Of a stretch of DNA of 64,000 nt, positions 2,477 to 58,722 are shown piece after piece. Position 1 is the stretch's first letter; each line of letters begins with the position of its first letter. Location: positions 30,010,001 to 30,074,000 of the forward strand of contig OX485804.1 in NCBI GenBank assembly GCA_950295325.1, given 5' to 3'. The notes under the pieces were generated by a model. That model saw only the letters and a list, made by a program, of their open reading frames with translations. It did no database searches and was not told the DNA's origin. Position numbers and translations under genes: made by a program. Source of the DNA: Polytrichum commune (lineage: Eukaryota; Streptophyta; Polytrichopsida; Polytrichales; Polytrichaceae).

Positions 2477-3540
2477 TTTCAATAATCACAAATAAATCAG
2501 TGGAAGTATGCCTTGTGTTGATGTTTTGTCTTGAATTTGCTAATACAATACAAGCTTCATTATATAAATTTAATCGGTAAAAGTTGGAGAACACAAAAAA
2601 CAAACCCAATAACTCCCATGTACTTGAAGGTGAACGTGCCTAATTCAGTTACATATCTTAATCAAACATAACCTTTTGAGTGGTGTGTGGTTTGGTGTGA
2701 CTTCAAGAACGGATACCCAAAAAACATGTGTTTAAAAGGGATTGGACCATATGCTCAAAATATCATAACCATTCTAAGCTTGATACTCAACATAATTGGG
2801 GGGGGGACAGAGGGGGGAGACCTTTATGACCATTTAATGAGCACAAGAATCTTCATCTAGATAATGCATTACATATTCATATGAACTCCGAAAATAAACA
2901 AAAGGAAAGTGGCTATGGCCTAAATTTGGATTGCTAATAGCATGCCTGCACTATGACTAGCAATTTGGCCTAGAGTAGTGGGAGGGTGTCCATCTTAATA
3001 AAAGTTTTTTGGTCTTGTATGCACTGAAACATACAGGTAAAAATTACAATACATTACATCTAGTGAAGACGTTGTGAGTAGAACAGAAGTTCCTTACTAA
3101 TAGCAAGTTATTCTAGCAAGAGATGAACTTCCCCTATCAAGAAGGACTCCTGATGCTGCCAAGGATCAACAACTGACCCTACCTATGTGGGCATGGCATT
3201 AAGCATAATTTTCTACCTCCAAATTTCTCTACATGCTTTTTTTGGGTGGATGTTCACCGGTGATCATCTAAGATAAATCTCAAACCGTGCTTCAAACATC
3301 CTTTAGTAGTTGGTTAAGATGACTGTGACAATCCTCCAACACGGTTGCGGGGAGTCTGTAAGTAGCTAGTCAAGTGCAACCTCTTTTAGTGGATACATGA
3401 GTGGTTAACACACGATTTTGGCTTTGGGACCCGAGAATGTGCGGCAATGCCCTAATAGCGTGTTCTATATCCTAGGCGAAGTGGGCTAATTGGGAAAATG
3501 GAAAAGAAAAAGAAAAAGGGTAACCATATAAGGGTTGCTA
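2477..3540. other. Intergenic, no feature recognised
   Basis: AT-rich sequence with homopolymer G and C runs and no credible gene. Confidence 0.3.
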
Positions 3541-3567
3541 CACACTATGGCCGTCCAAGTCAAGAGG
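3541..3567 (-). repeat. Inverted copy of part of the 81-bp repeat
   Basis: This 27-bp stretch is the reverse complement, with one mismatch, of the segment that ends each 81-bp unit of the array 100 bp downstream. It gives the array one inverted terminus. Confidence 0.6.
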
Positions 3568-3661
3568 CGGTGGGATGTGAATGGTCAAATGTCGTTGAGA
3601 GCCCAAGCAAATGGGTTGAAAATAGCCAACAAAATATAGGAATTGGGGCCTTCGGCCGGGG

Positions 3662-3940
3662 CATAGTGTGAAGCCTCCAAAGGCCAAGCCCAAAGTCCAA
3701 ACCTTTGGCCATGAACTCCCAGAGCCTCTCGACTTGGACGGCCATAGTGTGAAGCCTCCAAAGGCCAAGCCCAAAGTCCAAACCTTTGCCCATGAACTCC
3801 CAGAGCCTCTCGACTTGGACGGCCATAGTGTGAACCCCCCAAAGGCCAAGTCCAAAGTCCAAACCTTTGGTTTTGAACTCCCAGAGCCTCTCGACTTGGA
3901 CAGCCATAGTGTGAACCCCCCAAAGGCCAAGTCCAAAGGA
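3662..3940. repeat. 81-bp tandem repeat, about 3.5 copies
   Basis: Units begin at 3662, 3743, 3824 and 3905, each opening with CATAGTGTGAA. The period of exactly 81 bp (27 codons) keeps several frames open on both strands, so the repetitive proteins predicted here are probably artefacts. The array lies 0.67-0.95 kb upstream of the Lhcb6 start. Confidence 0.85.
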
Positions 3941-4295
3941 AGAAAGAGCATCTCACTGTATTCCACGCCCGAAACAACCCCTCTAATCTGACAGCCACGA
4001 TCTTGTCAGGTTTTGATTTCATGTATCGAAAAGTCTTGATGATCCCTCGACCGTAGTTTGGCCAAACTTCCTTTGAAAGTTTGTCGCCTTGGCCCAAAAG
4101 CGCTGCCATGTAGGCATTTGGGAGAGTGACGGCCTCTGGACTTTGGCCTCACACATGAAGGGTGGAGAGGCCAAATTCTGGGTTCCTTGCAATCCGATTG
4201 GTGGAAATCGATGGCCTCTCAACCTTAGGCCCGAATAAGGCCCAAACGAAAGAATTAGTGGTTGACGGGCCGCTGGACTAGCCCGGCGAGTGAGG

Positions 4296-4610: not shown

Positions 4611-6420
4611 ATGGCGTTGGCTTGCAGTGCATCGACGGTGTCGCAAATCACCGCGGTGTCGACCTCGTCGTTCGTGAGGTCCGCACGCAGCCTCAAGGCC
4701 TCCCCCGTGGTGTCGTTCGGCGTCAGCAATGGCTCCCGCGTCATGGCCATGGCCACCAAGAAGGTGTCCGCCAGGCCCTCAGCTGGAGGCAAGAAGTCGT
4801 GGTTGCCTGCTGTCAAGGGTGGAGGTGACTTGGTCGACCCCCAGTGGCTCGATGGCTCGTACGTCCTCCTCCTACTTCTTCCTCATTCCCTTCAGGCTTC
4901 CCTGATTGATTGATTGGCTGGTTGGTTTATTGATCGATTGATGTTGCGACCCTGTGTAGGACTGCAATGTAGGATAGGCTGGAAAATTATGAAGTTCTAG
5001 GAGGGAATTTTACAAATTTTGCGAGCTTGCATTGAGTCTATAGCCTGTGAAGAATTTGAGTATAATTTTGTACTTTAAGCACATATGGACTTTTTTTGGT
5101 TGCTTTGAAGACATAATCCACATCTGGATGATGTGGATGTTGTTGGACAGTGTGGTATGGGGGCCAACTGCGGGGAGTGGTTCGTGAAGAATGAGATGGT
5201 CTTTTTATCAGCGTGGGATTTGGGGGGGGGGGGGGGGTTATGGGTGTTCTGGTCTTAAGTTTTCTTCTCGATATGTGTAAGAGGATTTCCAGTAGGATTG
5301 GATGGTGTGGATAGTAGACAGTGTGTGTAACGGGGGTTAGGCACTGCAGAATACGTTCTGTTAAGCAGCAGCGGAATGGCTTCGAGGAGGAGAGAAGGGT
5401 AAGGGATTCGGAGGGTTATGTCTGTTCTGGTTCTCAAGTTTGCTTGACGTTTGTGATGTGTGTATGGATTTGTCGTAGGATAAAATATAGTGTTAAGACT
5501 TTTCTGGTAAGTGTACTTGTGTGCAATCTTTTCGTAAAGCAGGAGATGGTGTTTTGAGCAGGCTGGCTTACGTGCAAAGGACTAGGAGTATGGGAGCTAT
5601 GGCTGTTCCGGTTCTTTAGTTTGAAGCCTGGTGATGCATTTGGGGTTTTTTAGTAGTATGAGGAGATGGCAGAGTGCTTTGGTCGAGTAGGTGCACTTCG
5701 AAATGCAGAGGGCTAGGAGTATGGGAGCTATGGCTGTTCCGGTTCTTCAGCTTGAATCATGGTGATGTATGTGAGGTTCTTTAGGAGCATGATGAGATGG
5801 CAGAGTGGTATGGTCGAGTAGGTGACGCATCTTTCTGACGGAATTGTCGATTGTGCTTTGTGTTGTGAAGTCTTCCCGGTGACTACGGCTTCGACCCCCT
5901 AGGTCTTGGAAGGGACCCTGCTGCATTGAAGTGGTACAGAGAAGCCGAGATCATCCACGGCCGGTGGGCAATGGCAGCAGTTCTCGGTATCTTCGTAGGT
6001 CAAGCATGGAGCGGCATCCCCTGGTTCGAGGCTGGAGCCGACCCGGCTGCCATTGCACCATTCTCCTTCGGTTCTCTTTTGGGAACTCAGCTCCTCCTCA
6101 TGGGATGGGTGGAGACCAAGAGGTGGATCGACTTTTTGAACCCTGGCACACAGTCCGTGGAGTGGGCCACCCCCTGGTCAAGGACCGCGGAGAACTTCGC
6201 CAACACCACCGGTCTGCAAGGATACCCTGGTGGCAAGTTCTTCGACCCCTTGTCCTTGGCTGGGTCTGTCAGCTCTGGAAAGTACAACCCTGACTTCTCT
6301 AAGCTGGAGAGGTTGCAACTCGCCGAAATCAAGCATGCCCGTCTAGCTATGGTTGCCATGCTCATCTTCTACTTCGAGGCTGGACAGGGCTTAACCCCTC
6401 TCGGCGCCCTTGGACTGTAA
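4611..6420 (+). CDS. Lhcb6: Photosystem II minor antenna protein CP24 (Lhcb6), chloroplast precursor
   Basis: Encodes CP24, a chlorophyll a/b-binding protein that helps attach the trimeric LHCII antenna to the photosystem II core in thylakoids. Exons are 4611-4858 and 5871-6420, giving 265 residues. The donor is GTACGT, the codon TC|T is split, and the acceptor is AG. The first ~50 residues are Ser/Thr/Ala-rich, a typical transit peptide. The mature part opens [12 protein letters not shown], followed by DPQWLDGS. Helix B has EIIHGRWAM and helix A has EIKHARLAM, which carry chlorophyll ligands. The tract [15 protein letters not shown] and the C-terminal [10 protein letters not shown] are diagnostic of Lhcb6 rather than Lhca proteins or CP29. 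The protein looks intact. The 1,012-bp intron contains a repeat array and a long poly-G run. Confidence 0.96.
5222..5830 (+). repeat. Degenerate repeat array inside the Lhcb6 intron
   Basis: Four related blocks centred on a core like GCTATGGCTGTTCCGGTTCT begin near 5238, 5415, 5597 and 5727. The last two are clear tandem copies of about 130 bp, each ending in a GGTCGAGTAGGTG tract. A run of about 16 G precedes the first copy at 5222. Confidence 0.7.
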
Positions 6421-26420: not shown

Positions 26421-29400
26421 CTAATTAGTCCAAATTTGTCTGCCAACTCCTTCATTGGCCTTGCAAACCCACTCTCCTCCCAACTCAGGTGATGGCTCGA
26501 TTACATATATGACATTATGATTGCCCAACAAATGAATTGCAAATTGATTGCGCTTTTGAGGATGCACTACAATCTTCCAACGGATCCTGCCATCGACAAC
26601 AAAAGTTGAATCAAAATTTCCGTCAAAACATCACAAACTCCATCTAATCACAAGCATGGCATTAAATTTATGAAGAGCTCCAACTGCTGCATCTACCGAT
26701 GATATCTGCAAACAGTAACGTAACCGGTTGGCCGCTTTGTTTCGCCAAGGTGGCACTACACGATTGGCTCTGAGCACACAGGTTTGTAGACGATAACCTC
26801 GACATCCCAGCCGGTTATGATCATCTAAATCGGTTATGGTGACAGGTGACCCACTGTTTAGGTCACCTGCGCGGCTCAACAAAGCGGCCAACCGGTTACG
26901 TCCGGTAATCGTTTTATTGGAACCAGTTATCGGTGCAGAACCGGTTCCAATAAAACGATTACCTAATACATCCACACCTACACATATTATGCTCCACAGC
27001 CACAAACAATGCATGTTCTACTGCAGCCTAGCAGAGAAGGAAAATCTGGATATGACTTCCGCATGGATTGGAGTATTAGTATATGTACATGGTCCACTTA
27101 TAATTATTTGGGCTGTATGCGGATGGTGCAATTCGACAACGTAGTTGTAAACCAGCAGTGGCATCAAATACGCCAATCGAACCGTCGTCAAAGCCGGCAT
27201 ACACAAGCTCGCCGTCACATGAGTACTTAGCACAACGTATATATCCATATTCGTTGTGGTCCCACTGCGTAGAACGAATTCCAAATGTCAACGAACGGGA
27301 GGTGGGAATTTCATTATGGGTTGAGTAGGGACACATAAGTATAATAGCTACCACATCAAGATACGACACCATATATTGGATGCACTTTCATGTGGTACTT
27401 TATGTCACTCTGGTAATTGTTCTCATGACACTTCTTGTGAGGAAGTTTACTACAGTGAGTACTTTCATCCCAAATTACTTTAGTCCATCCAAAAATTGCC
27501 ATTTATTGAAATAAAGTTTGGTATATTTTGCATCCTCACAATTCGTAATTGAAATATTATTGTCATGGATGATTCACATTTGGATGAAAAATCACTTCGT
27601 GAGTGACAATAATTGCAACATGGTAAATATGTAATGCAAAATCTATTTTACAAGGATTGACAAATAATGTTAAATTCATATTTAGTGCTGGTGACACTAC
27701 ATGGGTGGTTTATAATTAATATTGAGCAAAATGAATAGAATTGGTAACACAAAATGCACTATTATGTGTATCATGCATCACGATCACAACAAGGCATGAT
27801 TGCTCACAAAGTGCAATGGATGAATCAAGATCCCCAAATGAATTTGAATTTGAATAGAATTGGTGACACAAAAAACATTTTTAAGTGTACCATGCATCAT
27901 GATTGCAATAAGATGTGATTGCTAAAAAGTGCATGAATGAATGAAGGTCTTAAGAAGAATTTAATATTTACCTCGTGGAGTTCCTTTCGTTGCCGCAAAT
28001 CGCAAATGGCTAACGAGAAAGTATTTTTCACAAGGAGTTGAACTTGGTCATTGTGGAGGTCACAAGGATCGTGGTTGTCCAATCCATTTATTCTCTCCAT
28101 GTGCTCATCATTGAGTGTCCATGTAAATATACCCCCCTAATGACACCGCACACACGCATGTTAGAACATAACTAAGTGTTAATTTGCTTGAATCCAATAA
28201 TTTGGGATCGGAGTCATAGGATGTAAACTACACAAAAACGAACACGAGCTTTTATTCAATTGTATTTCAACATGATTCAATACACATCATCATAATCAAA
28301 AGGTGAAATGATAGCAAAGTTGTAGCTTTCTAAGGGGAGTTTGGCATGAACATAAATGGAAACTCAAGTGTATGAATGACTTTCATATATTATAAGAAAA
28401 ATTACCTTGCCTTCGACAGTACAATCAAACACCAACATATTTAGAGTGGTGGAAAAAATTAGGATTCCTATGTGATTCCCTCTGGGATTTTTCCCTAATT
28501 GAAGGGGATGCACTCTTCTAGTCAAATCCTGCAATCCAACATAATTTTTCCATGTATTAATCCATCTACGTTAGAATAGTCCAATGCGAACAATAGTTGT
28601 TTGGAGGGGTGCACTCTTCAACAAACTTAAAAGTAACGTGTTTGCTCCACCTTCAAATCCAAATGTAGATATTACACATAGCTTTAAATATATGTAGTAA
28701 CCCATAACATATGCACTTGTTCATGCCTATTATTGTGATTTTGCATTCATGTCCGAATCATGGGCCTATTGTGATTTTACATATTACAAACATCTTATTA
28801 ATCACCCAAATCATCCATACAAACTATACCTTCAACGATATCCCCTTATGTGCTCAATGTGCACATTTATCTAAATTAGAACCTTTGCTAAGCACCCCTG
28901 TGCAAGGTAGACTGCATGCATTGGACTTTGCTTGAGATGATTTACTTAATCGTCTTCAAATTATGTGTACATCAACTTTTCGTTGCAAATCATGCAATTG
29001 ATTCCCATTGTACACCTATTTTGGGTCATATTATTTGTAGCTAAAAGTCCACAACAAATTATTCAAGAGGAAGTTAAGACCATCACTTAGGTCTAACTCA
29101 TGTGCCATATTGACATTCTTTGGACTACAAAAGTGACTCTCGTAAATAAGATCATTTTTAGTTCTTCAATAGAATTATCATTTATCCACGCATATTTTCA
29201 TATTCCACGTGTATGACTTGGATAGTAATTTTGTACCTCATTCTGGTAATCATAGGCCCCAATAACACCATGCTTTGTAGCCCAAAATACAATGTTATGA
29301 TGTGGATGTAGTAGGACATGTAAAATTTCATCCTGCAAATAAAAAGTAATGCATTCACCTAAATATGAAGCACTTTGATACATTATGCCGTTGTTAATCT

Positions 29401-32400
29401 AGAATACTCCATTTCATTTATCATCAATTGACAATCATTTTCTCGCTGTAATTTATAGCTATACACATATAGTAATTTGTCGAGCTAGGAGGCTGAATAT
29501 TCAAGCATAATTTATGTTTTGACTTCAAGAGTCCTCACATGTTTCTTTAGAGAAAACCAACATGCTATTTAGATCTACCAAATATATGGACTTACTTGAT
29601 ATCACATTTCATGGAACTGTTAACAACATTCCACATATTGTGTGAACATGAAGATCAACACCGGCCTTTGTTTGGTACTCTAGGTTGAATATAAAATGAC
29701 CTTAGCTTATAACGATGTTTAATTACTTGTACATATTAAATAGAATCTATGGTATTAGTAAACATATCATATTTTTAGATTATATTTTGGTCAAAATGTT
29801 ACTTGTTGCGTTATTGCAAATAATAACCTTGCAAGACCATGAACCCATCACCGGGCCCTTCCAAGGCACAAAAGTTAATAGCATATTGACCCAAATGATT
29901 ATCGAGATGGCCATAGCTAAACCTGCCCAATGCATCCCACACAAATCTTCAAATGAAAAATGAAATGATCTTTTAAGGGATTCATGACAATGGAGAGTTT
30001 GTTTCCAATATGAACTCTTTTGGTTTGAACATTGAAATTTGGCGTAGAAGTACTATAAAATAAAGTTTATGTGACTATCAAACAATTATTTCTATAGTTG
30101 GGTTTAATTTTGATATCATAACTAAAATCATTGATATGTTAAATCCAAATGCCATAGTATGAAATCCTCCACATTCATGTTTCAACTAGAATAATGTACA
30201 AACAAGTTGATGTCATCTTAACACCAACTCCAAAAATGCTTAATATATAATCTACTAACATTTTAGACAACCCATCAATTCATATATTAGTTACACTGAA
30301 AAACAACATTCAAAGAATAAAAACACTTAACAATCCGTTTAATGAAGATATTTCTTTAATTTAAATTAATGTTTTATACGCAAATTTTATGATGGTGATG
30401 GAACATTAAACATATTTATTTGTACACATTCATAACACAACTACCAAAACCCAAGCCTTCATAGAGTGATACGATTTGGATTTTCTTATCGTAAAGATTC
30501 AAGTATCCAAAACAACTAAGTAGGTGATCTTCAAGAAACCTAAATGTGTCACGCACATGTTGTCCCAAAAGGCAAAAGGGTTTTCTTCAAGGAAGGGACA
30601 AAACCACACCCTAACGTGTTTTTACTTTTCTCTCTATCCGTTTTCTTTTCTTGCAAGTCGAATAGCAATAACCATTCTTTCATGAGATATTGGAGTGGTT
30701 GAGCCAACAACCAACACCTTCAAGGTGACGAAGATTTCTTCTACTCTTTGTATGTTTCATGTTCTAATGATGAATGTTTCATGCTTTAAATATGCACTTT
30801 AACCTTCATAAAGTAGATTTAATTTGAAATAGTCCACGATTATCATCACATTGACCACTACAATGGAATAAAACAATCAATCATTTGATTTTTTTTTGTG
30901 TGATAAAGACCCTACTATTAATTTTGTGCTCTAGATGGTATGTTTAATCCAACCCCTATGAGTATTGAAGCGAGCTTTTCCTTTGTATATGCCAAAATTG
31001 AAACTCATTTAAAAAATAATGTGGAAATAATATGAAATTTGACAATGGTTATCATATATATGTACTATGTATTTGAATATGGATCATTTATATTCGTGTA
31101 TGCATATGTACGGTACAATGGGAAGAATGCAATAAAATCTACAATTAAAGATAGTATAAAATTCATTTTCAAATTTAGACATCATGTAAACCAACACCTT
31201 GCAACACTTGATGCATTAATGTAAAATCCAATTTTAGTCAATTGCGCACCCATGATTTCACGCTCATATTATGTATTTGGTTCAAATAGTATGTATTTGT
31301 TATCTTTCACCATAATATTTTTTTGTGTTTGTGAGTAATCAATAGTCTGTGAATTAACAACTACTTCTACACCCACAAGTTTGATCAAATCTAAAATGTG
31401 TGAATTTGCTTATTGTACAACCTACAAATGTCATTATCCACGGAATAACTTATGAACATTTTATTGATTTTGAATCAATCTTAAGATCACCCCCTATGTA
31501 GTACTACATGAATTTCATGGTCCAATCTTTATTTGTTTATTTGTTTCTTGACACTATGTTTCAAACTCACATCATGGGTAAAAGCAAATGAAATGCAAAT
31601 ACCTCATCCACCTCTCCATTATTACACTTGATATTCCACAAAGGTGACCAATCCTTGTAGTGTGGGGGATATTCCTTTACATCCAATCCAAAGACATACA
31701 TTAATGGAGATGATCACCATGTTCTACCAAAAAGGTGTTTACATTGCATTGAAAAGGGCCATGACCTTCTAAACAAAGCACCTATGAGAAACATCATTAC
31801 AAAAATTATATGTAATAAAATAATGTGTAAAGAGAGAAAACGATTCATCCTCAAAGCTATGTATGACCCTTACCTTACTGTGAAAAAATCCATAAATACC
31901 AATGCTTGTTGATGTGGCCTCCACTACCCGTGTGCCATCCTTACCATCCTTAAAATCTAGATGGCCTTGCCCAATAGGAAAATCGACTACATCACAAAGC
32001 GGTCGCCATGAGGATGCGTGAATTAAGGTGTCCTGCACGAATAAACCACGATTTCATTTTCAACTTGGTATCTTTATCACATGAACAACACTCAACACTT
32101 TCCATATTCTAGAAATGTGAATGGCACATAAGTAAGAATTCATGTTTTTAGCTAGACCCATAACATTAAGTAGCAAGGCTAGGAGGGTAATCTTTGAGTA
32201 TGCACAACTTTACCTCAACTAGAAGGGAAAAGCTTGCAAAGCAAGGGTGAATGAATGGATAATTAATCAAACATAGAATCTTCAAAAAGGTATCAAAGAG
32301 GTTTGCAATGCGGGTGTCAAGAGAATTTTCCAAAATATGCAACTACCTTTTTGACCTCACCAATTTTCCCGATGCTTTATAGCTATTTGGTTTAGATCAT

Positions 32401-34455
32401 ATTAGAATCTTTACCACCACTTGGCATTAGTTTTGTCCTAGAAACGGACATATATAATTAATTCCAAGCATTGAAAGTGACTACCCAAATAAATAAAAAA
32501 TAGCCTAAGTAAACCTCAAACTTAGTGCTACCTTTGCTCTTGAAAGAGCATCAAATTGGCATGGGCCGATTTGAAGCTCTAGTGAGATGGCCAATCCGGG
32601 CTTGCTACTTAATGTTATGACCTTTTCAGAAGTCGCATCCTCCCAATCCTTGAGTATGTAGGGGAGTCTTCCACAGCATAGCTGCACCAATGAGTCTCCT
32701 TGATTGATATATTGCAGTGCTAGAACCTGTTGAAATTACAAAGTCAAATTGCTTGGTCAAAAACCATATATGTGTCAATTGTAGCTCTCTTCCTATTATG
32801 GGTAAATGGATTCAAAATTCATCTCTTCTTCATTTCAAAATGTATATTGTCGATGACAAACAAACATATAATTATCAAAATGGCTAGTGTCAATTGTTGC
32901 AACAAATCCAAATATATTTCAATATGTATCATAGCACTATAGTCTATAGGCTACTAAATAGTATCAACTACATTTGCTTATGGTACTTCGATAAGCTACG
33001 GTCTTGAGATAACTAAATGCAGTACTTAGCAAACCTATAAGTAATGAAGATATATAATGAAATGGTATAAGTAATCTAATATGAGGTATACTTAATGACT
33101 CCAATTTAAGTGTTTTAAGTGCTCAACTAACCAAACGAGATCTTGGACTTTCAAGAGGTAAGGATTGATGTCCACTTCTCTTCCCCACTTAACAAAATAC
33201 ATCAACATCAAAAAGGGAAATGAAGTCTACTCTCACGAAGCCCATAGGAGGTGTTTGAATTGTAGTTGTCCGGCACATTGCGGGATCCTCAATTAGCAAG
33301 CATGGCCTTTGAAGTAATGTATCAAGAAGGCCATGGGTGCATTCCATAGTTTGCAAATATTGTCCCATAGGTCCATCTTCTCCGTGATGTGTTTTTGAGG
33401 GGGGAGTTTCTCTTCCTGCAATGAAGAAAACTTCATTTTAAAGTTGGATTATAGCAACAAATCAATATTTCTACATGGAAAAATCCCTTAGATTTGGGAG
33501 CTTTGGGTTCCATCATACTTCCAATCACTAACCTGAACCAACAACCATCTTCGGCCATGTTAAGGCTAGTTGTGTATTTGGCAAGATCTCTTCTTGAAAA
33601 TCCCTTTGTTCTCTGCAATACTATGATTCACGTTAGTTTCCACATCTCTATGTTCCGCTTTATAAATTGGAAACACACAAACTCTAAACCGGGTCTTAAC
33701 CTACACTCAACCTTCGTCTCAACAAAGATAAATATGCATTTCCCCGCGGAGTTTGATGCTAATGTCCAGAAAATGCTAGAAAGGCAGTTCATTTTCAAGA
33801 GACTATTCTGATTCAGCTGGGTCTTTTTAATGTCCATTCGTTGTGTAAAATAGTAGAGTACCTTTGTCTACTGAGAAAATTATTTAATGTAGTGATAACA
33901 AAAATGCAGTGAAAGACCCCAAAACCCATGGAGTCAAGTCATTTAGAGAGATCGAAATGCTCCAACGAGGGGACTGTAGAAATAAGAGCTAAGGACTCCA
34001 CACCTCGTGAGTGGGTTACCGAACTGTGGCCCGCTTGTGACGATGCCAGAACCGCTTTTATGATGGTCATGTTCATAATCCCAAATTTCGTCAAGCCTTG
34101 ATCCCCATCCTTCATCCTCTCTCTCCTCCTCGAACACCACATCACATCTATTCCAAGATAACCAAATACATGAACAAGTTAATAAGTCAACCAATGTATA
34201 AACTGGTCGTTCAACTTTTGTAACTAAACCAGTGGAAAACACCTTAACGTGCAAGTAATGGGTCCTTCACTTGAAAGCACGAGGAAATGATAAATTTCAA
34301 TTGAAGTGATTGAATCTGATGCATCTCGTCCTCACATTGACAACGTAATATTTTTTTGAGGATAAAGTTATGAAAGTTTTTTACTTGAACCTGCCAATTT
34401 AGCGGCAAGCTTGCTACTCACATCAACCGACTGCAAGACCAACCACCAGGTAATC
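26421..34455 (-). CDS. TOPLESS-type second WD40 propeller (exon chain; probably fused to the upstream kinase)
   Basis: Minus-strand exons 34455-34391, 34223-34004, 33612-33533, 33415-33237, 32726-32532, 32032-31874, 31674-31603 (tentative), 29332-29237, 28528-28406, 28136-27972, 27264-27089 and 26586-26421 join in frame. From 33.4 kb on they follow the order of the C-terminal propeller of TOPLESS corepressors: LLIEDPAMCR, LQYINQGDSLVQL, HLDFKDGKDGTRVV, ILHVLLHPHHNIVFWATKHG, FSTTLNMLVF, HNDQVQLLVKNTFSLAICD, KYSCDGELVYAGFDDGSIGV with RCRIAPSAYS, and IVVHPQKRNQFAIHLLGNHN. No TOPLESS N-terminal LisH/CTLH region and no first propeller are visible. The first three exons (ITWWLVLQSVDVSSKLAAKL, then an acidic segment) are unrecognised and rest on splice logic. 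The family binds transcriptional repressors in the nucleus; this divergent copy may do something else. Confidence 0.68.
26719..26963. repeat. Two adjacent perfect hairpins in an intron, AACCGGTT-rich
   Basis: Arms 26719-26741 and 26878-26900 are perfect 23-bp inverted copies containing AACCGGTTGGCCGC. Arms 26904-26924 and 26943-26963 are perfect 21-bp inverted copies of GGTAATCGTTTTATTGGAAC plus one base. The structure lies in the last intron of the WD40 exon chain and looks like a nested foldback insertion. Confidence 0.85.
27400..27770 (-). mobile_element. CACTAAATAT-family MITE, diverged inverted copy
   Basis: Read on the minus strand it shows the family blocks in order: a relative of CAATTCTATTCATTTTGCTC, GTGTCACCAGCACTAAATAT, TCCAAATGTGAATCATCCATG. 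It lies in an intron of the WD40 exon chain. Ends are degraded and the boundaries are approximate. Confidence 0.6.
27732..27950. repeat. Degenerate tandem duplication, about 121-bp spacing
   Basis: Two copies of a block opening ATAGAATTGGT(A/G)ACACAAAA and containing CATGCATCA and TGTGATTGCT-like tracts begin near 27732 and 27853, within an intron. Confidence 0.65.
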
Positions 34456-34522
34456 CTGTAAACAAAAGTGAAAAGTCGATCATATGTCACAGTTCATGCA
34501 TAAGTCAGAAGAACAAACTTAC

Positions 34523-36204
34523 TTTTGGTCTAGGCCTGCATAGTGCAAATTGTGTGGTTGTTCAGTAGACTGCTTTCGCCGTTGGTGTTCATACTTCCTC
34601 AACATCTCCTCAATGTACTTGTAGCCTATGGGAACAATTTTCACTTCTTGCAAACCTCCATGCCCAACAGACGTGGAGCCCATCCAAAGATCATGTCTGA
34701 TCTCTTCGAGCCTTGTGCAAATGTCTATAAATCTAGGCCTTGAATGTGGGTCTCCGCTCCAACATTGTGTCAAAAGAGACACCAACTTTTCAGGACAATT
34801 GGAAGGAAGGTCGGGCCTTGCACCTCCCACTAATTCTCTATACATTTCGGATAATTGAACATCCTCAAATGGTGTCTTCAGAGATAGAATCTCTGCACAA
34901 GTCACACCAAAGCTATAAACATCGGCTTTGAACCAAAATGCCTTTGCATGCCCTTTATCTCCTTGTGTACGCTTTTGTGCCTTTGGATGTACCTCTGGAG
35001 CTCTGTATCTTGTAGTGCCGACACCAGGTTTAGATATTGTATTTGACTTGGAGCTCTCCACTTTCGTCTTTGACATGCCAAAGTCGACTAATTTCACACA
35101 GAAATTGTCGTCGAGATGTGGGGTGATCAGTCTATTTACAACCACATTTAACGGTTTGAGGTCTCGATGTGCAATCCCCAAGTCGTGCAGATAGCACATT
35201 CCCCGGCCGATTTGCACGATAATATCAAGTGCCACAGACTCTGGGAATGGTTTTCGCCCTTTTTCTGCTTGATCCTGGATCAAATCAGAAAGGCTCATTT
35301 CCATAAGCTCCATCCCTATAAAGCATTGTCCCTTCTCCGGGCCATTGCTGCAACAGAAAAAATTCACAATGTTTGGATGGCTGAGACGACATAAGATTCC
35401 CGCTTCTCGAACGAAAATAGCCATCTCCACTGCCGTGTGAAACTCCTTCTTGGCGCACGGAATGTCAAGCCATTTTGCTTTCAAAACACCACCGGCGCCG
35501 GACCCACTTCCAAGAAGGCCGTCACATTTCCATGTGCCTGGAGGTTCTGTTTCCTTCACCCACAAAATTGCCCTGGTAGAGATGCCCAACTCATTGGCCT
35601 GGCCATGTTGAGGTGGGCAGTCGAATCTTCTCAGCAAGTATTCTGCGAGGCATTTCTCCCAAGGGTTTGAGGAGCGTTTTGTGCCGGCCAAGCGCACAAG
35701 TACCTCTTGCAAAGATTCTCGATCTTTACGGACCTTCTCTTTACTTGTAGGTGAAAATGTTGAAGACTCGCGAAGATCCTTTATCTGAGGATCACCTTTT
35801 CCACGCATTCCCTTGGCTTGCTCACAAATGACATTGTAACATAAACCCATCTCCAACAGAATCTCCTGAAATGCCTCATCATTTTGTAGCTGAAATATTA
35901 GTGATGCTTCACTCCAGTTCTCATTGGAACAGTTACAAACAAGCCGCTTCGCCTTCTCTGAGATCTTATATAAGTTGCGTATAGCCAGTGTAAAGGGGGT
36001 GGAAGATTCCCCACAGTTTGAGATGAGTGCTGTGACATTCTCAATGGTTTCCACAAGTTTTGATGACAAATCTCCACACTGAGATTCATTCAGGAGGGCG
36101 TTGGAGTTTCTTACGCGGTCGCCTATCTCTTCCACACAGGCTTGGGAGAGCCTTAAGAAATCGACAGGCATAACCCAGTCTCTAAAGGCACGGAACGCCT
36201 GCAT
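34523..36204 (-). CDS. Serine/threonine protein kinase with N-terminal helical domain
   Basis: A 561-codon open frame. Residues 1-135 form a helix-rich Cys-containing domain I do not recognise. The kinase domain spans about 228-505: glycine loop GSGSGAGGV, Lys in AKKEF (252/253), helix C Glu in VREAG (267), catalytic HRDLKPLN (346-353), DFGMSK (374-379), RAPEV and a C-lobe Arg in HSRPRF. All residues needed for catalysis are present. HRD Lys and the general character indicate a Ser/Thr or TKL-like kinase. The frame would stop at 34519, but CAAAA|GTAAGT is a near-ideal splice donor that removes that stop, and the downstream exons at 34455 and beyond continue in phase. I therefore favour a kinase fused to the TOPLESS-like propeller (total about 1,125 residues), though unspliced transcripts would give a stand-alone kinase. 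Confidence 0.9.
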
Positions 36205-41400: not shown

Positions 41401-44355
41401 GAGTAGACGATTCATCGTTATTCATTGAATATAGGAACACAAAGTAGCGTATCTATTTCTCCTTGCAGGCATTGTTTTTCTAGAACATTGTTGTTGCCAG
41501 GGTTTAATGTACTCAAGAACGGACCTTGTAGGCATAACGAGGCATGTTCCATGGTGTAAAAGAGAGGCGAGGCTCATCTGGTGTATACATAAATTGGTGC
41601 ACTTGTTTTGGTTTCAACTCTTTGACACAATGTTTTCATGGTTCCTCAATTTCTGTGTATTGCATCCTCATGAGGGCAGTCTCAATGTTGTGCGAATTTC
41701 ACATGGTGCTTCCAGAAGCTCAGTGAATTCCTAGACCTATGGGTGATGCGTACCATGTAACAGAGAAATGTTTTTTCTTCAAACCTACTATCGTCAGCCA
41801 TACTAAGTGGCCCTTCTTGCTAATTTGAACCTTCGTCCAAAAGACCCAAGGCTCGGCCCCAACACCATATTCCAGCTTATTTTCGTGTTAGGAGCATTTA
41901 TGCGTTTCCTGATGATGAAATTGAAGCACGTGTTAAAACCCTGCTGCGCTGCCCTTCAGCCTCAACAAGTAAGTTGAATATTTTACTTATGCGCCAAGGT
42001 TGAAACTACTTGCGCGGCCTGAGTTATTTAACCTTCACCTCAACTCCTTGTGGAGTATATCTCACATCCAACAATCTAACCAGGGAACGAGATACAGTAA
42101 CCTCCCACTTAAGTATGCACTTTGAACTAGAGTTGTTGGTGTGCACTTAGTTGGTGGGTGTGTACTTTACTCATATGGCTATCTAGATCCTCCAATTCGA
42201 TGAATTGCAACGGGAAACGGATTAAATCTAAGGCAATATGCTTGACCAAAGCCCAACGATGTGAAATCATTGTTGAATCTAAAAGTGCTACCGACTTCAA
42301 AGGCATTGAAGCATAATTTTCAATATTAACTTGAAGTTTACATAATACTACACAATAGATAAGTTACCAATACGATGATAAATATTTGACAAGTGTGAAA
42401 CACATATATGGCGAGCATGTCCATTGCTTGGCATCAAGCCTTCCATTGAGGTTGAGAATGGTGAAGTGAGATATATTATCTCCAAATATTGATGATACAA
42501 ATACTTGGACTTGGCAAGTTGCAATTAAATGAGAGTAAGATAATCAATCTCTAGGCATCTTCTCTAAGTACGAGTCCCCATAGCCGTCCATACCTTTCTT
42601 CTCCGCCATAGTCACCACCCTTTTTGCTTATTTGCTTGCTTGATTTATGTTGATATGAAAATATGGTTCATCGACCATAGACTTCTTTGGTACCCCTCAA
42701 CATGTATGCATGTATTAACTTGAAAAAGCTACCCAATTCATTGGGAAGATTTGTATTTTTTGGGTGACCATCAATTGTGTGAACTTGGAGGAGACACCAA
42801 AGGCTTTGAATGCACTGTCTTCTTTGGCATTTTTGGTCATAGGTTGATGTTGCAAGTTGAAGGACGTGCCTCGAAGATGTGTGAAGTTGTTCAATGTTGA
42901 GATAATCCCAGACGAGGTGCACAAAAGTTTATGAAAAGAGCATGATTTGATAAAATGCATGCATTTGCAAGGGCACGTGGGACAAATTAACTCAATCTTC
43001 ACAAGCACAACAAACAATGTCTTAAAAGGGGAAGGAAAATCAATGGAGATCATTGTATGTGAACTCGATGAGGTGGACAATAGTAGTGATTTGTTTTTCA
43101 TATTTTCAAGCTAACCGTATCGGCTACAATCATTGGAGTGATGAAGCCACATATGGATGACAATATACCTTTGCATCCAAAATTGTTCAATGAAATGCTA
43201 AGCTTGAGATTGGTCAAGTCGTTAAGCCAAAGACATTGTACATAAAGGGCAAAGAAAGGGAATCTATCATGGAGGTGGATTTGCATTGTTCTTTCCTTGA
43301 TGTGGGACGATTGCATAGGACTCGCATGCTAGCACACTAAATATATATGATACTTAGTGTGATATGGTATTTTAGGTCACTATGGTAACTTTTCACTCCA
43401 AAAATTTACTCATGTTGATGAATGGAATCGTATTGACCATTAATGCGCGTGACACTTTGAAACCTCTAGGTAGCCTCTAGGCATCTAGTTTAAGCCCTTC
43501 ACAAATAGTGCATGTGGCATTAAGTACCCTAAACGGTGTAATAATCTATTCTGTGTGGTGATGTACCAGTGGCTTGAAGTGTGGAAAAATGGAACATGCT
43601 ACGAAAGTCATGGGAGACTCATTCAGTCGGAGGGACCAATGCCCAATATTCCGTGTCCCACTTGGACTTGGCAAGTTGCAACCCAAGAGTAAACTAAACA
43701 ATCCCCGGGCCGCTCCTGTAATAAGTGCATACATTGGGTCAAAATCAGATCACAAAAACTTATTATTAGCTTACTTTATTCATCCACGGCAAAAAAGAAA
43801 CCAACAACAATATATGTAATATTGTTCCTGTGATATTGAATGTGGAATATCGACAAATTAGCGCAGGGCAACTTGATTGTTTATATTATGGTAGAATGTT
43901 CAATAATGGCTCAATGCCGATAGTGGAGCTCTAGAAGCAGCGTAGGGTGTTCAAAAACCACAGAGTAAATATGCATAAAGTGACGGCTTGCAACCGTGGA
44001 TGAAAATCGCGTGATTTTTGAATGAAAGTGTACAGCTTTTGGATGACAAGAAGCAATTTTAGGAAACTAGTGAGCAAGTTTTAGGATGGTGGGTGGGTTA
44101 ATTATGATAAAAATGTGTTTGCTTTATTACTTGGTGCTGAAGAGATTATTCCCTAGATTTAGTTGGTTAATAGTGGCGGCATGCTCATAAACCAATGCGC
44201 GGCAAGCACATTAATTTGAAATCTGGTGCACGATTTGCAATCTGATTGCATCCTACTTCGATTTCTCATTGTTCTCAAATTGTTGTAAGGTGTTTTGTTT
44301 TATGGAGTTAGAGTGCTTCAGTTGGAGCTTGAGATTGTAAACACACCTCTCACGC
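41401..44355. other. Non-coding or decayed interior of the inverted-repeat-bounded region
   Basis: AT-rich with scattered short frames. A CTTGGACTTGGCAAGTTGCA block is duplicated near 42506 and 43663. A partial relative of the 190-bp repeat end (GCATGTGGCATTAAGTACC, then AAACGGTGTA) occurs near 43512, and a CACTAAATAT-type palindrome lies near 43334. This suggests several nested, decayed insertions. Confidence 0.4.
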
Positions 44356-44715: not shown

Positions 44716-45041
44716 GTAAACTCTTTTTTACCTCCTGTGTGTACTTAGTGAAGATACGTCGTGAGAGAATCTTTGGATACTCAAGTTTTTATTTGGGTCA
44801 ATATCATTCTTTGCATGCCATAGACACAAATCATAGCAAAATCAAAAATGGAATTACATACTCATGCCGCACTTGTTTCAAAATATGAGACATCCTCATC
44901 ATAGGAACCCAAATGGAGTTAAAAAAAAATGATTGTTGAAAACTTAATAATGAATCCAGTCATGAAACTACAGTCATTGAACCCACATCGGTGAAACCTT
45001 CGAGCTGAGAAGTGAGCATATTGGCATGTAATTTATGCAGA

Positions 45042-47264
45042 ATGGGAGGCAGAGACCCAAGGCAACCTCCGCAGCAAACTAGCGGCAGACTACCTACAGC
45101 AGCAAGCAACCGGAGGGTACAGCGCAAGAAAAATAGTAATTGGACAAATGCACAACTAGAGCAAGCATTATCGGCAATTACAGACGATGGGCTGAAAATA
45201 CGGAAGGCATCATGGGTTTACAACATACCAGCCACATCGCTCCGCAACCACTTGTGGGGGACGACAAGTGGGCGACACAGAGGTATATGCCCAACCTTGA
45301 AACATGATGAAGAACTCAAATTAGTGGACTTCATATTCAAAATGCAAGAAATTGGGTATCCATTAACACCCACAGATTTGAGAGTTAAAGTCGCTCAAGC
45401 TACTCAAGCCCGACAAACCCCGTGGAGCGCAACTGGCCTCCCTGGCAGCGGATGGTTGCGTAGCTTTCGAAGGAGGCATCCTGAAATTTCCCTAAGGAGG
45501 CATCATGATTAAGAACTAGCGGTTGCCCGTGCTCGTAATATGTGTCTTGCAACTGTAGCAAGTTTTTATGCCAATTTGGAATACCTCTACTCAACTTACA
45601 ATTATCCAGAGTCCCATATCTGGAACTGCGACGAATCTGGTGTCCAAGCGGCGAAGAACGGCGGAGCAACAGTTTTGGCGAAGAAGGGTAGCAAGGTGGT
45701 GAATTCCATTACGCCGGATCACAGGGAGCACATTTTAGTGTTGTCATGCATCAACGCAGCATGTGGGAAAATTCCCAATTTTTACATTGTAAAAGGCAAG
45801 TACTTTACATCCAACCACATAAGAGGTTGCGAACCTGGGGCAGTCATGGGTGTCCAACACAACGCCTGGATGACGAAATTCCTCTTCGAGAGCTGGATCG
45901 CGCACTTCCTCAGGAACTTGAATAAAGGTCCTGGGGTTTCCCAACAGAACATGCACCTGCTCATAGTTGATGGACACACATCCCATGTTACAATTGAAGT
46001 GACAAAAACTTGCATGAACAACGGGATTGACATTGTGACTCTACCGTCACATACATCCCATGCATTGCAACCTCTAGACAGAACCTGCTTTGCACCTTTT
46101 AAAGCAGCTTTCCGAAGGATCCGAGACGACTGGATCAGACATCATAAAAACAAAAAGGTAGAGAAATCCATGCTCTGCGAGTGGACCTCTAAAGCTCTTG
46201 GCCAAGCTCTAACACCCTCCAACATCAAGGCAGGGTTTAGGCGGACAGGAATTTGGCCTCTAGACACGACAACTACCGCTGCAGATATGGGACCAGCGCA
46301 AGGGTTTCAGTCTGTGAACAACGTCGCGGGCTGCAGAGATGATGAAGATGGTGAAGATGGTGAAGGCACAACGGCAGCAAGTTTCAGATCGCCCTCTGTA
46401 GACCACACACAACTATTGTCGCCAAAGGGAGGTGTACATGAGCAAGACCCGGAACCATTTTACTACGTTAATGTTCCTGATGCAGACGAAAGCACTCACG
46501 AAGTACAAGACATGCCTGTAAACATTGATCCAGGTTTTCAGTCTTCCCTACAAGAGCAACAACAAGAACAAAATTTCAACTCATTCCTTGGCCTCCCGGA
46601 GGTCATTCCAGCTCGTAAAAGGAAGCCTCAACAACCATTACTGGATTTCACAAAATCCAAAATCTTGACATCAGAGGAGTACATTAATGCATGTGAACAA
46701 CTTCTAGCAAAACGACAAGAGAATGAGCCAGCTGCAAAACGCACAGGTGCAGAGAGAGCTGCAAACAAAGAATCACAACGGAGAGAAAAATAAGAGCGAG
46801 TTGCAGGTATTAACGAGAGGAAGGCTCAACAACAAGCCAAACGTCTCGAGAAAGAGCGCCTACAGGCGGAGAAGAGGGCAGGAGGGGGTCGACGAGGAAG
46901 GCGGCAGCCTCCGGCCAGCAGGAGCGACTTGGATTCGCCAGAAGGCGGAGCGACCATTCCTGAAATTCACCATGGAGAGGGCATGGCGATCCACGGCATC
47001 GCATCGAGGGAGCAGGGCGATTCACAGCCAGCATTCACGACTCCGCCCTCGGCAGAGCAGGGCCCCCGACATAGCTTCAACCCGTTCTTCAACCCGCAGC
47101 TGCAGCTGCAGCTGCCATCTTCATCGACCGCATTCCAACGACCCAATACCAGTTTGTGGCCGTCTCCACCGCCAATGTTTTACAATCCGATGCTGATGAC
47201 TTCTTTCTTTCCTCCTACAACGGCAAGTTTCAATGCATCTAAATGCAACGGTAATGCGGGGTAG
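45042..47264 (+). pseudogene. pogo/Jerky-type (DDE_1) transposase with two in-frame stops
   Basis: One frame is open from Met at 45042 to 47264 except for TAA at 45510-45512 and TAA at 46791-46793. The N-terminal part (NWTNAQLEQALSAITDD, then RKASWVYNIPATSLRNHLWG) is a psq-type helix-turn-helix, followed by a second DNA-binding helical region. The catalytic domain shows IWNCDESGV, LLIVDGHTSH and HTSHALQPLD, so all three catalytic Asp are kept. A charged Gln/Arg-rich tail and a proline-rich end follow the second stop. The first stop sits in a normally continuous stretch and is one C-to-T change from a Gln codon. Start choice: Met directly after an acceptor-like TTATGCAG; an in-frame Met at 45012 also exists. 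The family cuts and pastes DNA at terminal inverted repeats; this copy is probably inactive. Confidence 0.88.
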
Positions 47265-54750: not shown

Positions 54751-57700
54751 CTACCCCGAAGATACCTTCCGCCTCAAACGTTTTTGCACAGCTGGGGCTT
54801 CGCCGTCACGCTTAACACCATGGCGTGTAAGTCTGTCCTCAGACTTTGCTACCGCATCCCAGTACTCCTTGAGGACTTCTACACTCAAGTTGCATTCGGG
54901 CTCCCATGAATTATGTTCAAGTGCATATCCGAGCCATTTGATAAGATAGAATTTCTTGGGGCGAGAACGAGACCCTTTATCTTCGTGTGAAAGCACGCGT
55001 TCTACTTCATAAGATGCATCTTCCTCAAACACTGGCGGAGGGGGAGGCTGTACCCTGCCATCGGCCACATAAGGCCTAAGAAGTGACACATGAAAGACAT
55101 CGTGGATCTTAAATGTATCTGGCAGTTGCACGCGGTATGCTACCACCCCTATCCTTTGCACCACCCGAAATGGGCCAATCCACCTTGGTAAAAGCTTTCG
55201 AGCTCCTGGGACCTTCAACTTAATGTTGGCAGTACTTATTAGCACTTGCTGGTCCACTTCGAACGAGACCTCTCGTCGGTTCTTGTCACCATAGAACTTT
55301 TGTCGTTGTTGCGCAGCAATGAGATGTTTCTTGGCCTCGCCAATCACATGTGTCATGTGCTCGACAAAATTCTGCGCAGCAGGGACTTGACACCTGCTGT
55401 TCCCACTAATTGGTGTCCGGGACTGCTGACCATAGTTCAGGACAAACGGAGTATTCCGTACAGACTCTTGCCAAGAGCTATTATATGCAAATTCAACTAC
55501 TGCAAGGAATTCATCCCAATCATCTTGCACTGGGTTGACATAATGCCGCAACATATCCTCCAAGATACGGTTTACCCGTTCCGTCTGCCCATCAGTTTGA
55601 GGATGGAATGCGGTGGACATGGCCAACCTTGTCCCCAAAAGACCATGCAACGCATCCCAAAACCTACTTGTGAATCTAGCGTCCCTGTCGCTTAGGATTA
55701 CCCTGGGTAGACCATGCAACTTATATACATGATCACGAAAAAACCTTGCCGTACCTTCAGCAGTAACGTGTGTGGTGGTTGGCATAAAGTGGGCCATCTT
55801 GGACAACTTATCCACGCACACAAAGATGGCATCATAACCATTAGCAGATGGAGTCAATCCAGAGATAAAATCCATGCTCACTACTTCCCAATTTCTATCA
55901 AGAATCTCCAATGGTTGTAAAAGGCTTGCTCGTTTAAGAGTAGGGGCCTTACTCCTTTGGCAAATTTCACAAAATTTTATATAGCTTCTGATGGACCCTT
56001 GCATCTCAGGCCACCAAAAGTTTACTCGCACCCTCTTATACGTCTTAGTTACCCCTACATGACCGCTATACATTGCATCATGATACTCACGGAGTAAAAA
56101 TTACCTGATATTCGATTCTTGGAATGACACATCTGGAACCACAACCGCCTTTTCATACCACCAGATGTGATTCTCATAAACAAAATGTTTCAGATTGTAC
56201 GGGTTCGAGAACCAAGGATCAAGAGCATACCTGGCAATAATAGTTTGATATAACTTCTGATCACTGACGAACTCCGGGTACCCCTTCGGATTGTTGTCTT
56301 GCTCAACAGGATCACCTCGCCTAGCGTCTGCAGCCACCATTTGAAGGACCGAATTACTTGGAGCAGACCGCGGTGCCATCAAGGCTGGCTAGTCACCCGG
56401 GTCTAGTGGATTCCGACTCAGAGGATCTGCCATATTAATCCTTCCTAGTCTATACACCCATCTATAGACAAAATTTTGCTCCAAGAATTCCAACCACCGA
56501 GCTTGACACCTTGATAACGTCTGTTGTGTTTTTAAATACACCAGAGGGTTATGATCTGTGACGATCCTGCAATCTGCACCCTCTAGGTAACACCGCCAGG
56601 TTCGCATGGCGTGCATAACTGCTGCAAGTTCTTGTTCACCAGTAGTGTAATTTCTCTTAGCGGGAGAAAATTTCTTACTCTCAAAAGCAATGGGCTTACC
56701 TCCCTGAAGTAAGACGGCCCCTGCTCCGAGTAAAGAAGCGTCACTAACGACCTCAAATGGTTCCTCTAACTTGGGTAAGGTCAGAACTGGTGCATGTGTT
56801 AAAGCATACTTAACATTTTCAAAAGCGCGTTCATACTCGTCAGTCCAAATGTACTTGACTTTGCTTCGCGTCAGAGAAGTCAAAGGCGCAACCAGAGTGG
56901 AATATCCATGTATGAATCTGCGGAAGTAATTGCAAAGCCCCAAGAAAGATCGTAATTGTCCGACTTCAAGAGGTCTATGCCACTTGGCCACAGTCTCAAT
57001 TTTCTTAGGATCCACCTTGATGCCCTCTTTGCCAACAACATGTCCTAAATAATGCAATTCACTCTTTCCGAAATGACACTTAGACATCTTTGCATAAAAC
57101 TGATTTTCTCGTAAAATTTGAAGTACTTGTGCCAAATGACTGACATGTTCCTCCTCGTTCTTTGAAAAAATTAAGATGTCATCCAGATATACCAAAACAA
57201 ACTTTCCAATGAACTTGTAAAAAATACGATTCATTATTCCTTGAAAAGTTGCTGGTGCATTGGTCAATCCAAAACTTAATACTTTGAATTGGTAATAACC
57301 AAACGGTGTTCTAAACGCCGTCTTAGGAGCATCCTCCTCGGATATCCTAATCTGGTGATAACCTTGTGCCAAATCAAGAGATGAAAATACTATAGAGCCG
57401 GCTAACTGGTCAAAAAGATCATCAATACGAGGCAACGGATGACGATTCTTTACCGTTTGCTTATTAAGTGCCCGATAATCCACTACCATTCGCAACGCTC
57501 CATCATTTTTCTTGACGAACAAGATGGGAGACCCATAAGGCGATGAACTAGGTTCTATCCATCCCTTTCCGAAATACTCCTTGATTTGTTTCTTGGCCTC
57601 CTGCAGCTCGAGAGGACTCAACCTATAGATCGGCCTAAATGGCGGCTTGCCATCTGGCTCTAAAGGAATAGTATGGGCCATTTCCCGCTCTGGAGGTAAC

Positions 57701-58722
57701 CCTGTAGGTATGGGCTGAAAAACATCAGCATATTCCTCCAACACTGTGGCATAAGGTGTTGCCACTATGTCCTCTACGTCGTCTCCAACCGCGGTCAACT
57801 GAATTAAAAACGACGTTGCTTCCTTCCGAATTGACCGTTTGAACTGCATGGCGGTGAGTCTATGAGGATTTGGACTCTGACATTGCATTTGGTTCACATG
57901 CAGTGTCATTTTACGGCGGCCCTTATACAACACGCAACATTCAGATGCAAAATCCAAGCGTGCCTTGTGCTGCACTAGCCAATCATTGTCCAATATCAAA
58001 TCAATGCCTTCACTTAACTTTGCCACCAAGCAAGTAATTTGGCTTTGATATTGCTGTATTCTAACATGAACTTTAATATTGCCGTCCGTTTGGACTTCAT
58101 CACTATTGCCTAATACTAGTGTGTTACTGCTATTTTTCACTTTTAACCCGAAGGTCTTAGCAAAACCAGAACTCACAAAGCAATGTGATGCGGCAATATC
58201 CATTAATACAGATGCATCCTGATGAGCTACTTGTCCTCAGAAACTCATCATCAGTTCAGAAGACAGAGTGAGCTGATTCAACACACGTGGCCTAGGTTCA
58301 TCCAAATAAACATGCCACTGTACTGAGTTTGATTCAAATTGATGGATTAACTTAAATCTTGGTAGAGTTCTCTTAAGATTTTTTGCTTTACGTTTGTCAA
58401 CAATAAAACAAACACCGGTCTCATATGGCGCTCCCTCTTTACCGTGTAAATAAGATCTCAAGAAACTTTGCAAATTATCCACTGATGGTATAATCAATGA
58501 GAACGCTCCATAAATTTTGGAATTCACATCTAACACATCACTGAGTGGGAGTAACGGAGTTGGCAAAATAATGTCTTTATTCAAAATATCAGGCACGATT
58601 ACATTAAATTGCTTATTGACTAAGCCCTGAATCACTTCCAAAGCATCACTAGGCAAATAAAAAACACCCTCCGAAACTTGAACAGGTCCTGACACTAGCC
58701 CACTGCCTAAGTGTCGGACTTG
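54751..58722 (-). pseudogene. Chromovirus pol with three in-frame stops
   Basis: One reading frame, -1 relative to gag, is open to 54751 except for TGA (58237-58239), TAG (56389-56391) and TAA (56101-56103). In order it contains an unrecognised ~150-residue linker; a protease region whose active-site motif reads MDIAASHCF instead of the usual D-S/T-G; reverse transcriptase with VYLDDILIFS; RNase H (VVSDASLLGAG, GEQELAAV); integrase with an HHCC zinc region (CEICQRS), catalytic MDFISGL, LSDRDARF and GQTERVNR; a GPF/Y-type segment (RWIGPFRVV); and a C-terminal chromodomain (YEVERVLSHED, YLIKWLGYALEHNSWEPE). Each stop is one C-to-T change from a sense codon. The chromodomain is known to target related elements to particular chromatin. 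Confidence 0.93.

Follow-up and report, generated by a model that had tools for sequence, protein, structure and literature searches.

A candidate moss gene joining an MLKL-type kinase to a diverged second propeller of TOPLESS

Could a single plant gene join a protein kinase to one part of a corepressor, and what would the product of such a gene be for? The question is raised by a locus of the moss Polytrichum commune located in a 64,000-nt stretch of genomic DNA (assembly GCA_950295325.1, contig OX485804.1, positions 30,010,001 to 30,074,000), hereafter called the window, in whose coordinates all positions are given. The original prediction, made from the letters alone, proposed that a kinase reading frame continues by splicing into the second WD40 propeller (propeller 2) of a TOPLESS-type corepressor. 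The reading favoured here, with a probability of roughly 0.55, is that of one spliced gene encoding a HeLo-kinase, a linker and a diverged TOPLESS propeller 2 that acts as an immune-sensor decoy. Its observed basis is the MLKL-type fold and family of exon 1, the in-order and in-frame homology to the propeller, the strong signals of intron 1 and the recurrence of lone propellers in NLR and LRR proteins of other plants.

The proposed model of 13 exons, which runs along the minus strand from 36204 to 26421, could be rebuilt exactly. It comprises 3,378 nt, has no internal stop and displays GT/AG at every intron; the four junctions initially quoted, the end point and the total length were all reproduced. 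The frame of the kinase ends with a TAA (34521-34519) that is included in a donor, CCAAAA/GTAAGT. This donor, said to be near-perfect, does rank in the top 0.5% of the 3,808 GT sites of this strand according to a simple plant splice matrix built for this analysis, which gave all the ranks cited below. The acceptor at the start of exon 2 ranks in the top 0.1% of 3,740 AG sites and delimits an intron of 67 nt. The features of the gene, all on the minus strand, are the following.

34523-36204, minus strand: exon 1, running from the ATG to the donor of intron 1 (2 nt beyond 560 codons) and encoding the HeLo bundle, a brace-like helix and the kinase
35668-36165, minus strand: HeLo / MLKL-N four-helix bundle, model residues 14-179
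34708-35514, minus strand: protein kinase domain, residues 231-499, with K253, E267, HRD 346-348, N353 and DFG 374-376
34517-34522, minus strand: splice donor GTAAGT that contains the TAA
34391-34455, minus strand: exon 2 (tentative), 3' end uncertain, at 34391 or 34422
34004-34223, minus strand: exon 3 (linker), 72 open codons, GC 0.43, acceptor in the top 24%; without homology support
33533-33612, minus strand: exon 4 (linker), donor in the top 0.3%; without homology support
33237-33415, minus strand: exon 5 (tentative), tail (IEDPAMCRTTTI) resembling the linker immediately upstream of propeller 2 in TOPLESS; weak donor, top 41%
32532-32726, minus strand: exon 6, start of propeller 2 (VLALQYINQGDSLVQL), recovered at its start by unguided alignment
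31874-32032, minus strand: exon 7, propeller 2; splice sites in the top 0.3% and 0.1%
31603-31674, minus strand: exon 8 (doubtful), weak acceptor, top 25%
29237-29332, minus strand: exon 9, propeller 2 (HVLLHPHHNIVF); borders recovered by unguided alignment
28406-28528, minus strand: exon 10, propeller 2; 0/400 shuffles, borders recovered
27972-28136, minus strand: exon 11, propeller 2; 0/400 shuffles, borders recovered
27089-27264, minus strand: exon 12, best-conserved part (KYSCDGELVYAGFDDGSIGVFDA...RCRIAPSAYS), 31 of 57 aligned residues being consensus; hidden Markov model match of the single open reading frame (ORF) at E 1.5e-19
26421-26586, minus strand: exon 13, last part of the propeller, with the stop codon; 0/400 shuffles, start recovered, 16 of 48 residues consensus

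The phases of these exons agree, as had been put forward in favour of the model. Taken alone, this agreement is weak evidence because splice sites can be chosen freely: exon 2 could end in phase 0 at a donor at 34421, and exon 5 could end differently with a donor at 33230. The two candidate donors of exon 2 rank in the top 22% (after 34391) and the top 4% (after 34422). Weak splice signals flank exon 12 on either side and also mark the 3' limits of exons 2 and 5. Exon 7 can be joined to exon 9 in phase if exon 8 is skipped. Codon usage is uninformative, exons 9 and 10 scoring below zero despite their homology.

Exon 1 almost certainly encodes a complete MLKL-type protein. Among solved structures, its best matches over both domains are AtMLKL2 (6lba) and AtMLKL3 (6ka4), with nearly all of the exon covered, and its N-terminus searched alone also matches AtMLKL structures. 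A 47-row profile matches AtMLKL2 at E 4.9e-76 (profile 39-508) and AtMLKL3 at E 4.2e-66 (profile 34-550); an EGFR entry, matched by its kinase part, ranks between them (E 5.9e-69). The AtMLKLs are two of the 50 entries listed, the 48 others being kinases aligned over the kinase part. Like plant MLKLs and the wheat resistance protein Pm13, exon 1 thus carries an N-terminal HeLo / MLKL-N bundle and, C-terminal to it, a kinase-like domain of the same family (Pfam PK_Tyr_Ser-Thr, E 2.4e-40). The N-terminal helices, initially viewed as a sensor, therefore correspond to an MLKL-type HeLo bundle; by analogy with known relatives they are more likely an executioner domain, the role reported for HeLo in plant MLKL relatives (PMC10951266). 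The AtMLKLs are described as pseudokinases, whereas Pm13 is reported to keep its catalytic residues (PMC10951266). The window kinase resembles Pm13 in this respect, since K253, E267, HRD, N353 and DFG are all present; in a 49-row alignment E267, H346, D348, N353 and D374 are invariant and K253 nearly so. From these intact residues, the kinase is apparently active. Among these proteins, the C-terminal TOPLESS propeller is found only in the window gene.

When the part that follows exon 1 was searched, three proteins passed E 0.01, the match to a TOPLESS-related protein reaching E 1.9e-15. A second search, with a denser region as query, used 839 aa (model residues 287-1125; scored region, residues 853-1093) and found 194 proteins with an E of 1 or below, of which 120 were listed. 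From both searches, 121 of 123 proteins were aligned to the C-terminus of TOPLESS-RELATED proteins (TPRs) over more than 330 positions and form the profile used here. Positions 34600-26300 were then submitted, blind to the predicted exons, to a spliced alignment with this profile. At the middle setting the score is 138.5, whereas 40 shuffles reach no more than 47.1 and 12 stretches elsewhere in the window no more than 49.7. This alignment recovers intron 1 of the model, exons 7 and 9-12 with their borders, and the 5' borders of exons 6 and 13; it also adds four small pieces outside the model (33867-33862, 33179-33132, 31765-31743 and 30676-30673). At the strict setting, exons 12 and 13 and a part of exon 11 are all that is returned, and the loosest one drops exon 7 for other pieces. 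Because the unguided alignment finds most of the same borders, chance can be dismissed as the source of the phase agreement for exons 6, 7 and 9-13 taken together. It is not dismissed for exons 2, 3, 4 and 8, exon 5 lying between the two groups.

The strength of the homology varies along the propeller part. In the spliced test carried out by parts, no shuffle out of 200 was as good as exons 6-7, nor as exons 9-10 (21.6 versus a shuffle maximum of 20.9), and 174/200 equalled the region of exon 8. The residues of each exon were also shuffled 400 times and compared with the expected part of the profile, and 200 times with the whole profile. Against the expected part, exons 10-13 were equalled by 0/400 shuffles, exon 6 by 7, exon 5 by 11, exon 2 by 39, exon 7 by 44 and exon 9 by 50; exons 3 (110/400), 8 (296/400) and 4 (386/400) show no significant TOPLESS similarity. 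Against the whole profile, the counts are 0/200 for each of exons 10-13, 15 for exon 6, 39 for exon 5, 73 for exon 7 and 165 for exon 2, and exons 7 and 9 align best elsewhere than expected. Among combinations, exons 6-7 alone were equalled by 1/60 shuffles, and the tail of exon 5 together with exon 6, a tail picked after the match had been seen, scores 17.6 versus a maximum of 13.5 in 60 shuffles; exons 2-3 (30/60) and 3-4 (32/60) are at chance level. The homology can be called solid in exons 10-13, of moderate strength in exons 6, 7 and 9, and tentative in exon 5. That exons 10-13 are homologous to TOPLESS propeller 2 is hardly in doubt; the homology spans exon 6 to the end of the protein and perhaps begins in the linker at the tail of exon 5. 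Exons 2-4 may be an uncharacterised linker, and exon 8 may not be real. The order of propeller 2 proposed from 33.4 kb onwards is therefore retained for exons 6, 7 and 9-13 and, tentatively, for exon 5, exon 8 being doubtful.

Two resemblances in the linker were discarded. KITWWLVLQSVD of exon 2, chosen at the middle setting, looks good by eye as a TOPLESS linker, but the 39 equal shuffles out of 400 and the better match of exon 5 to the linker speak against it; similarly, TKVERPVYT of exon 3 was compared with KV.RLLYT of TOPLESS and was equalled by 110/400 shuffles.

Pfam finds nothing above its curated cut-offs in the propeller part, which shows only weak WD40 matches to solved structures. 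The second propeller is the only part of the TOPLESS and TPR corepressors detected, in order, in the window. As announced by the original prediction, neither the LisH/CTLH/CRA N-terminus nor the first WD40 propeller was found by tblastn of three TPRs against the window, at a sensitivity that reveals only well-kept parts and also misses exons 5-11. The only matches are 27267-26469 and a chance-level one at 42965-43111 (E 0.5).

Do exon 1 and the propeller belong to one gene? A fusion is rather probable, judging from the homology and the splice signals, and one reading path is best supported, with the reservations expressed above for exons 2-5 and 8. The first alternative is that of two genes on the same strand: an MLKL-type kinase gene ending in exon 2 (34370-34368) or at the TAA 34521-34519, then a separate 5'-truncated TOPLESS-propeller gene or remnant. 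It is compatible with the lack of TOPLESS homology in exons 2-4 and with the propeller-only arrays annotated in Ipomoea. Three kinase-only relatives (P0004, P0005 and P0006; 86, 83 and 76% identity) also end at the same lysine as exon 1, although a protein read through the donor would stop there anyway. These records come from contigs of 2.1-3.2 kb and look like calls of uninterrupted ORFs, unable to tell a stop from a donor. Two genes are nevertheless unlikely, given the strong donor over the stop, the strong acceptor 67 nt further on, the TOPLESS N-terminus not found in the window by tblastn and the frequency of kinase-plus-module fusions in the HeLo-kinase family.

This family comprises 261 relatives at E 1e-10 or better, and the statistics that follow concern the 120 listed ones; the named species nearest to the window gene is the moss Ceratodon purpureus. 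At least 700 residues are found in 54 of them. Their precomputed Pfam lists include C1-type domains (20 proteins), NB-ARC (5), AP2 (2) and a response regulator (1). In annotated moss members these modules lie C-terminal to the kinase. Rescans place the C1 domain of P0024, the response regulator of P0019 and the NB-ARC and LRR of P0108 above the Pfam cut-offs, and the AP2 of P0089 just below. In P0007, P0009 and P0010 the whole HeLo-kinase unit is repeated in tandem, a layout comparable to that of the cereal tandem kinase resistance proteins.

Short relatives may also carry traces of a donor after the kinase. Among 64 relatives of less than 650 aa, 51 have a recognisable kinase end, and 18 of these 51 short ORFs harbour [ED]V[IS] within their last 45 residues (shuffle mean 2.9, maximum 9; the pattern was picked after viewing the tails). 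This is the pattern expected when the frame reads through GAG/GTAAGT or GAG/GTAATT. It is lacking in 33 of the 51, including P0004-P0006. In the PNL genes of mosses, a conserved phase-0 intron is reported between the kinase and NBS parts (PMC3352924). Together, the tail pattern and this intron make it probable that the family habitually has a splice donor after the kinase.

The N-terminal part of the moss kinase-NB-ARC proteins P0107, P0108, P0110, P0111 and P0116 is homologous to the MLKL-type exon 1 (for P0108, 33% identity over residues 42-509). In the PNL (or Pkn-NLR) receptors of mosses, what is described as an N-terminal "protein kinase" may accordingly be a HeLo-kinase unit of the MLKL type. 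Such a unit would offer these receptors a route to the execution of cell death. The window gene shares with them the HeLo-kinase part and an intron after the kinase (PMC3352924); it differs in bearing a TOPLESS propeller in place of NB-ARC-LRR. Apart from the kinase part, tblastn of P0108 against the window finds only an LRR-like stretch of 22 aa (42681-42746, E 0.12-0.26). Expanded integrated domains are reported for the NLRs of Ceratodon and Sphagnum, and a Physcomitrium kinase N-terminus is reported to cause a modest and variable response in Nicotiana (PMC11218826).

Several results weigh against a fused decoy gene. A search for relatives combining a kinase and a TOPLESS C-terminus, suggested with the original prediction, found none: no propeller or TPR C-terminus occurs in the 120 listed kinase relatives, and no kinase in the 120 listed propeller matches. 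The donor of exon 1 is in phase 2, versus phase 0 in the family pattern and the PNL introns. The frame of exon 2 can run on to the stop at 34370-34368, as the last exon of a kinase gene. Exons 2, 3, 4 and 8 are without significant similarity to TOPLESS in the profile and shuffle tests, and the stretch of exons 2-5 was equalled by 16/200 shuffles in the spliced test, a score not above chance. The end branch of the propeller is very long, which could reflect relaxed constraint. Finally, effectors also target other parts of TOPLESS, as reported for SIX8, which binds WD40-1 (PMC10754003).

If the gene is fused as favoured here, what would the propeller do? A role as immune decoy would then be quite likely. 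The encoded protein would begin with a HeLo bundle and an MLKL-type kinase that is apparently active; a linker would connect these to a strongly diverged TOPLESS second propeller. This propeller would mimic the TOPLESS surface for DLNxxP-type peptides, which is targeted by at least one pathogen effector; its binding or modification would relieve the autoinhibition of the kinase/HeLo part, and the freed part could trigger defence or a membrane-damaging cell death. The single transcript, the binding of effectors, the autoinhibition and the coupling to cell death are what we infer in this scheme. Concerning the surface, the Ustilago maydis effector Jsi1 is reported to bind TOPLESS WD40-2 through a DLNxxP motif (PMC8126959), and propeller 2 is therefore a known effector contact. 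Such a gene would represent a one-chain sensor-executioner in a moss, combining a death-domain kinase with a mimic of the corepressor surface bound by Jsi1.

Kinases fused to a putative decoy are known in wheat. Lr9 (WTK6-vWA) confers resistance, and its authors propose that the second kinase and the vWA domain act as a decoy, Sr43 being a second example (PMC10260399). As in the window model, a kinase is joined to a non-kinase domain in both; the kinase subfamily and the added domain are different, and the available text of the paper describes no HeLo part (PMC10260399). For the window gene, the agreement of splice signals and phases with one transcript is judged from the DNA sequence.

Lone copies of propeller 2 also occur in other plants, in proteins that are database gene models. 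In Paspalum notatum, P0003 carries Rx_N, NB-ARC, a winged helix and LRR followed by a TOPLESS propeller 2. In Vaccinium darrowii, RPS2-like LRRs are joined to two copies of propeller 2 in each of P0125 and P0126 and to one in P0196. In Ipomoea batatas, P0124, P0127, P0128 and P0129, named TPR1-like or topless-related 3-like, are arrays of propeller 2 devoid of the N-terminus and first propeller. As in the window gene, only the second propeller has been captured in P0003, P0125, P0126 and P0196, starting near the same linker; the host differs, being an NLR or LRR protein, and their propellers fall among angiosperm TPRs. A quick tree built from 48 propellers places the Paspalum copy next to a TPR of the monocot Typha (support 87), within a TPR2-type group that is well supported; the Ipomoea and Vaccinium copies lie in another well-supported group, with TPR3s. 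At best three label changes occur on this tree, two of them forced by starred branches, corresponding to two or three separate recruitments. A placement of the window propeller within the TOPLESS tree proved impossible, its end branch of 4.48 changes per column being too long.

It is conceivable, as a tentative proposal, that TOPLESS propeller 2 is a recurrent integrated bait captured separately by angiosperm NLR/LRR proteins and by a moss MLKL-type HeLo-kinase; the moss protein would then unite both roles, sensing and execution, in a single chain and do without an NB-ARC switch. If the fusion is real, the moss gene together with the Paspalum and Vaccinium proteins would make propeller 2 a repeatedly used bait and open a direct way toward the effectors that hit it. 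Among the papers listed, titles and abstract openings make no TOPLESS-propeller fusion evident, which does not show that none is described, and the word "topless" is lacking in the main text of PMC4759884 as far as available.

The second alternative accepts the fusion and gives it another role: the propeller would recruit the kinase to DLNxxP-type regulators or compete with TOPLESS, in transcriptional signalling and not in pathogen sensing. Propeller 2 is indeed reported as a peptide-binding surface (PMC8126959), and the best-conserved exons are exons 12 and 13. The HeLo executioner-type N-terminus, the kinase-NB-ARC-LRR proteins among the relatives and a divergence of the propeller far beyond that of the TPR rows of the tree make this role improbable.

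The last alternative, a decaying copy or an assembly artefact whose propeller exons have no functional product, could draw on the low identity, the very long branch, the weak splice signals noted above and an insertion in the last intron, and is very improbable in view of GT/AG at all borders and of zero stops in the homologous exons versus about 10 expected under neutral decay. Identity to TPRs is about 30-36% in the longer BLAST alignments and reaches 53% over 81 residues. When a TPR segment was allowed to decay neutrally to 36% or 31% identity, it acquired a mean of 9.5 or 10.1 stops, and no run out of 500 was free of stops at either identity. Simulation thus upholds the original argument that a decayed copy would not have kept its frame open. 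The homologous exons of the window have no stop; their limits were drawn open, exons 10-13 being fixed by homology. This disfavours a decayed TOPLESS copy, and the propeller is most likely a fast-evolving sequence under coding constraint, whose function may have been lost very recently.

The insertion in the last intron consists of two inverted repeats at 26718-26963, one with 29-nt arms separated by 126 nt (93%), the other with 25-nt arms separated by 10 nt (96%). It is probably a small transposon-like element, in an intron whose GC (0.45) is above that of the other introns.

Elsewhere in the window, the plus strand carries at 45009-46793 a transposase in two adjacent ORFs (HTH_Tnp_Tc5, HTH_psq and DDE_1), which we take to be of the Tc5/pogo type. 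Parts of a Ty3-type retrotransposon (gag, protease, reverse transcriptase, RNase H, integrase and chromodomain) are spread over several ORFs of the minus strand at 54751-59960. A short tandem repeat of LDLAFGGFTLWPSKSRGSGSS-like units, open in several frames, is found at 3538-4005. Lastly, a reading frame for a chlorophyll a/b-binding protein (5869-6420, plus strand; Pfam E 1.7e-39) is consistent with a plant genome.

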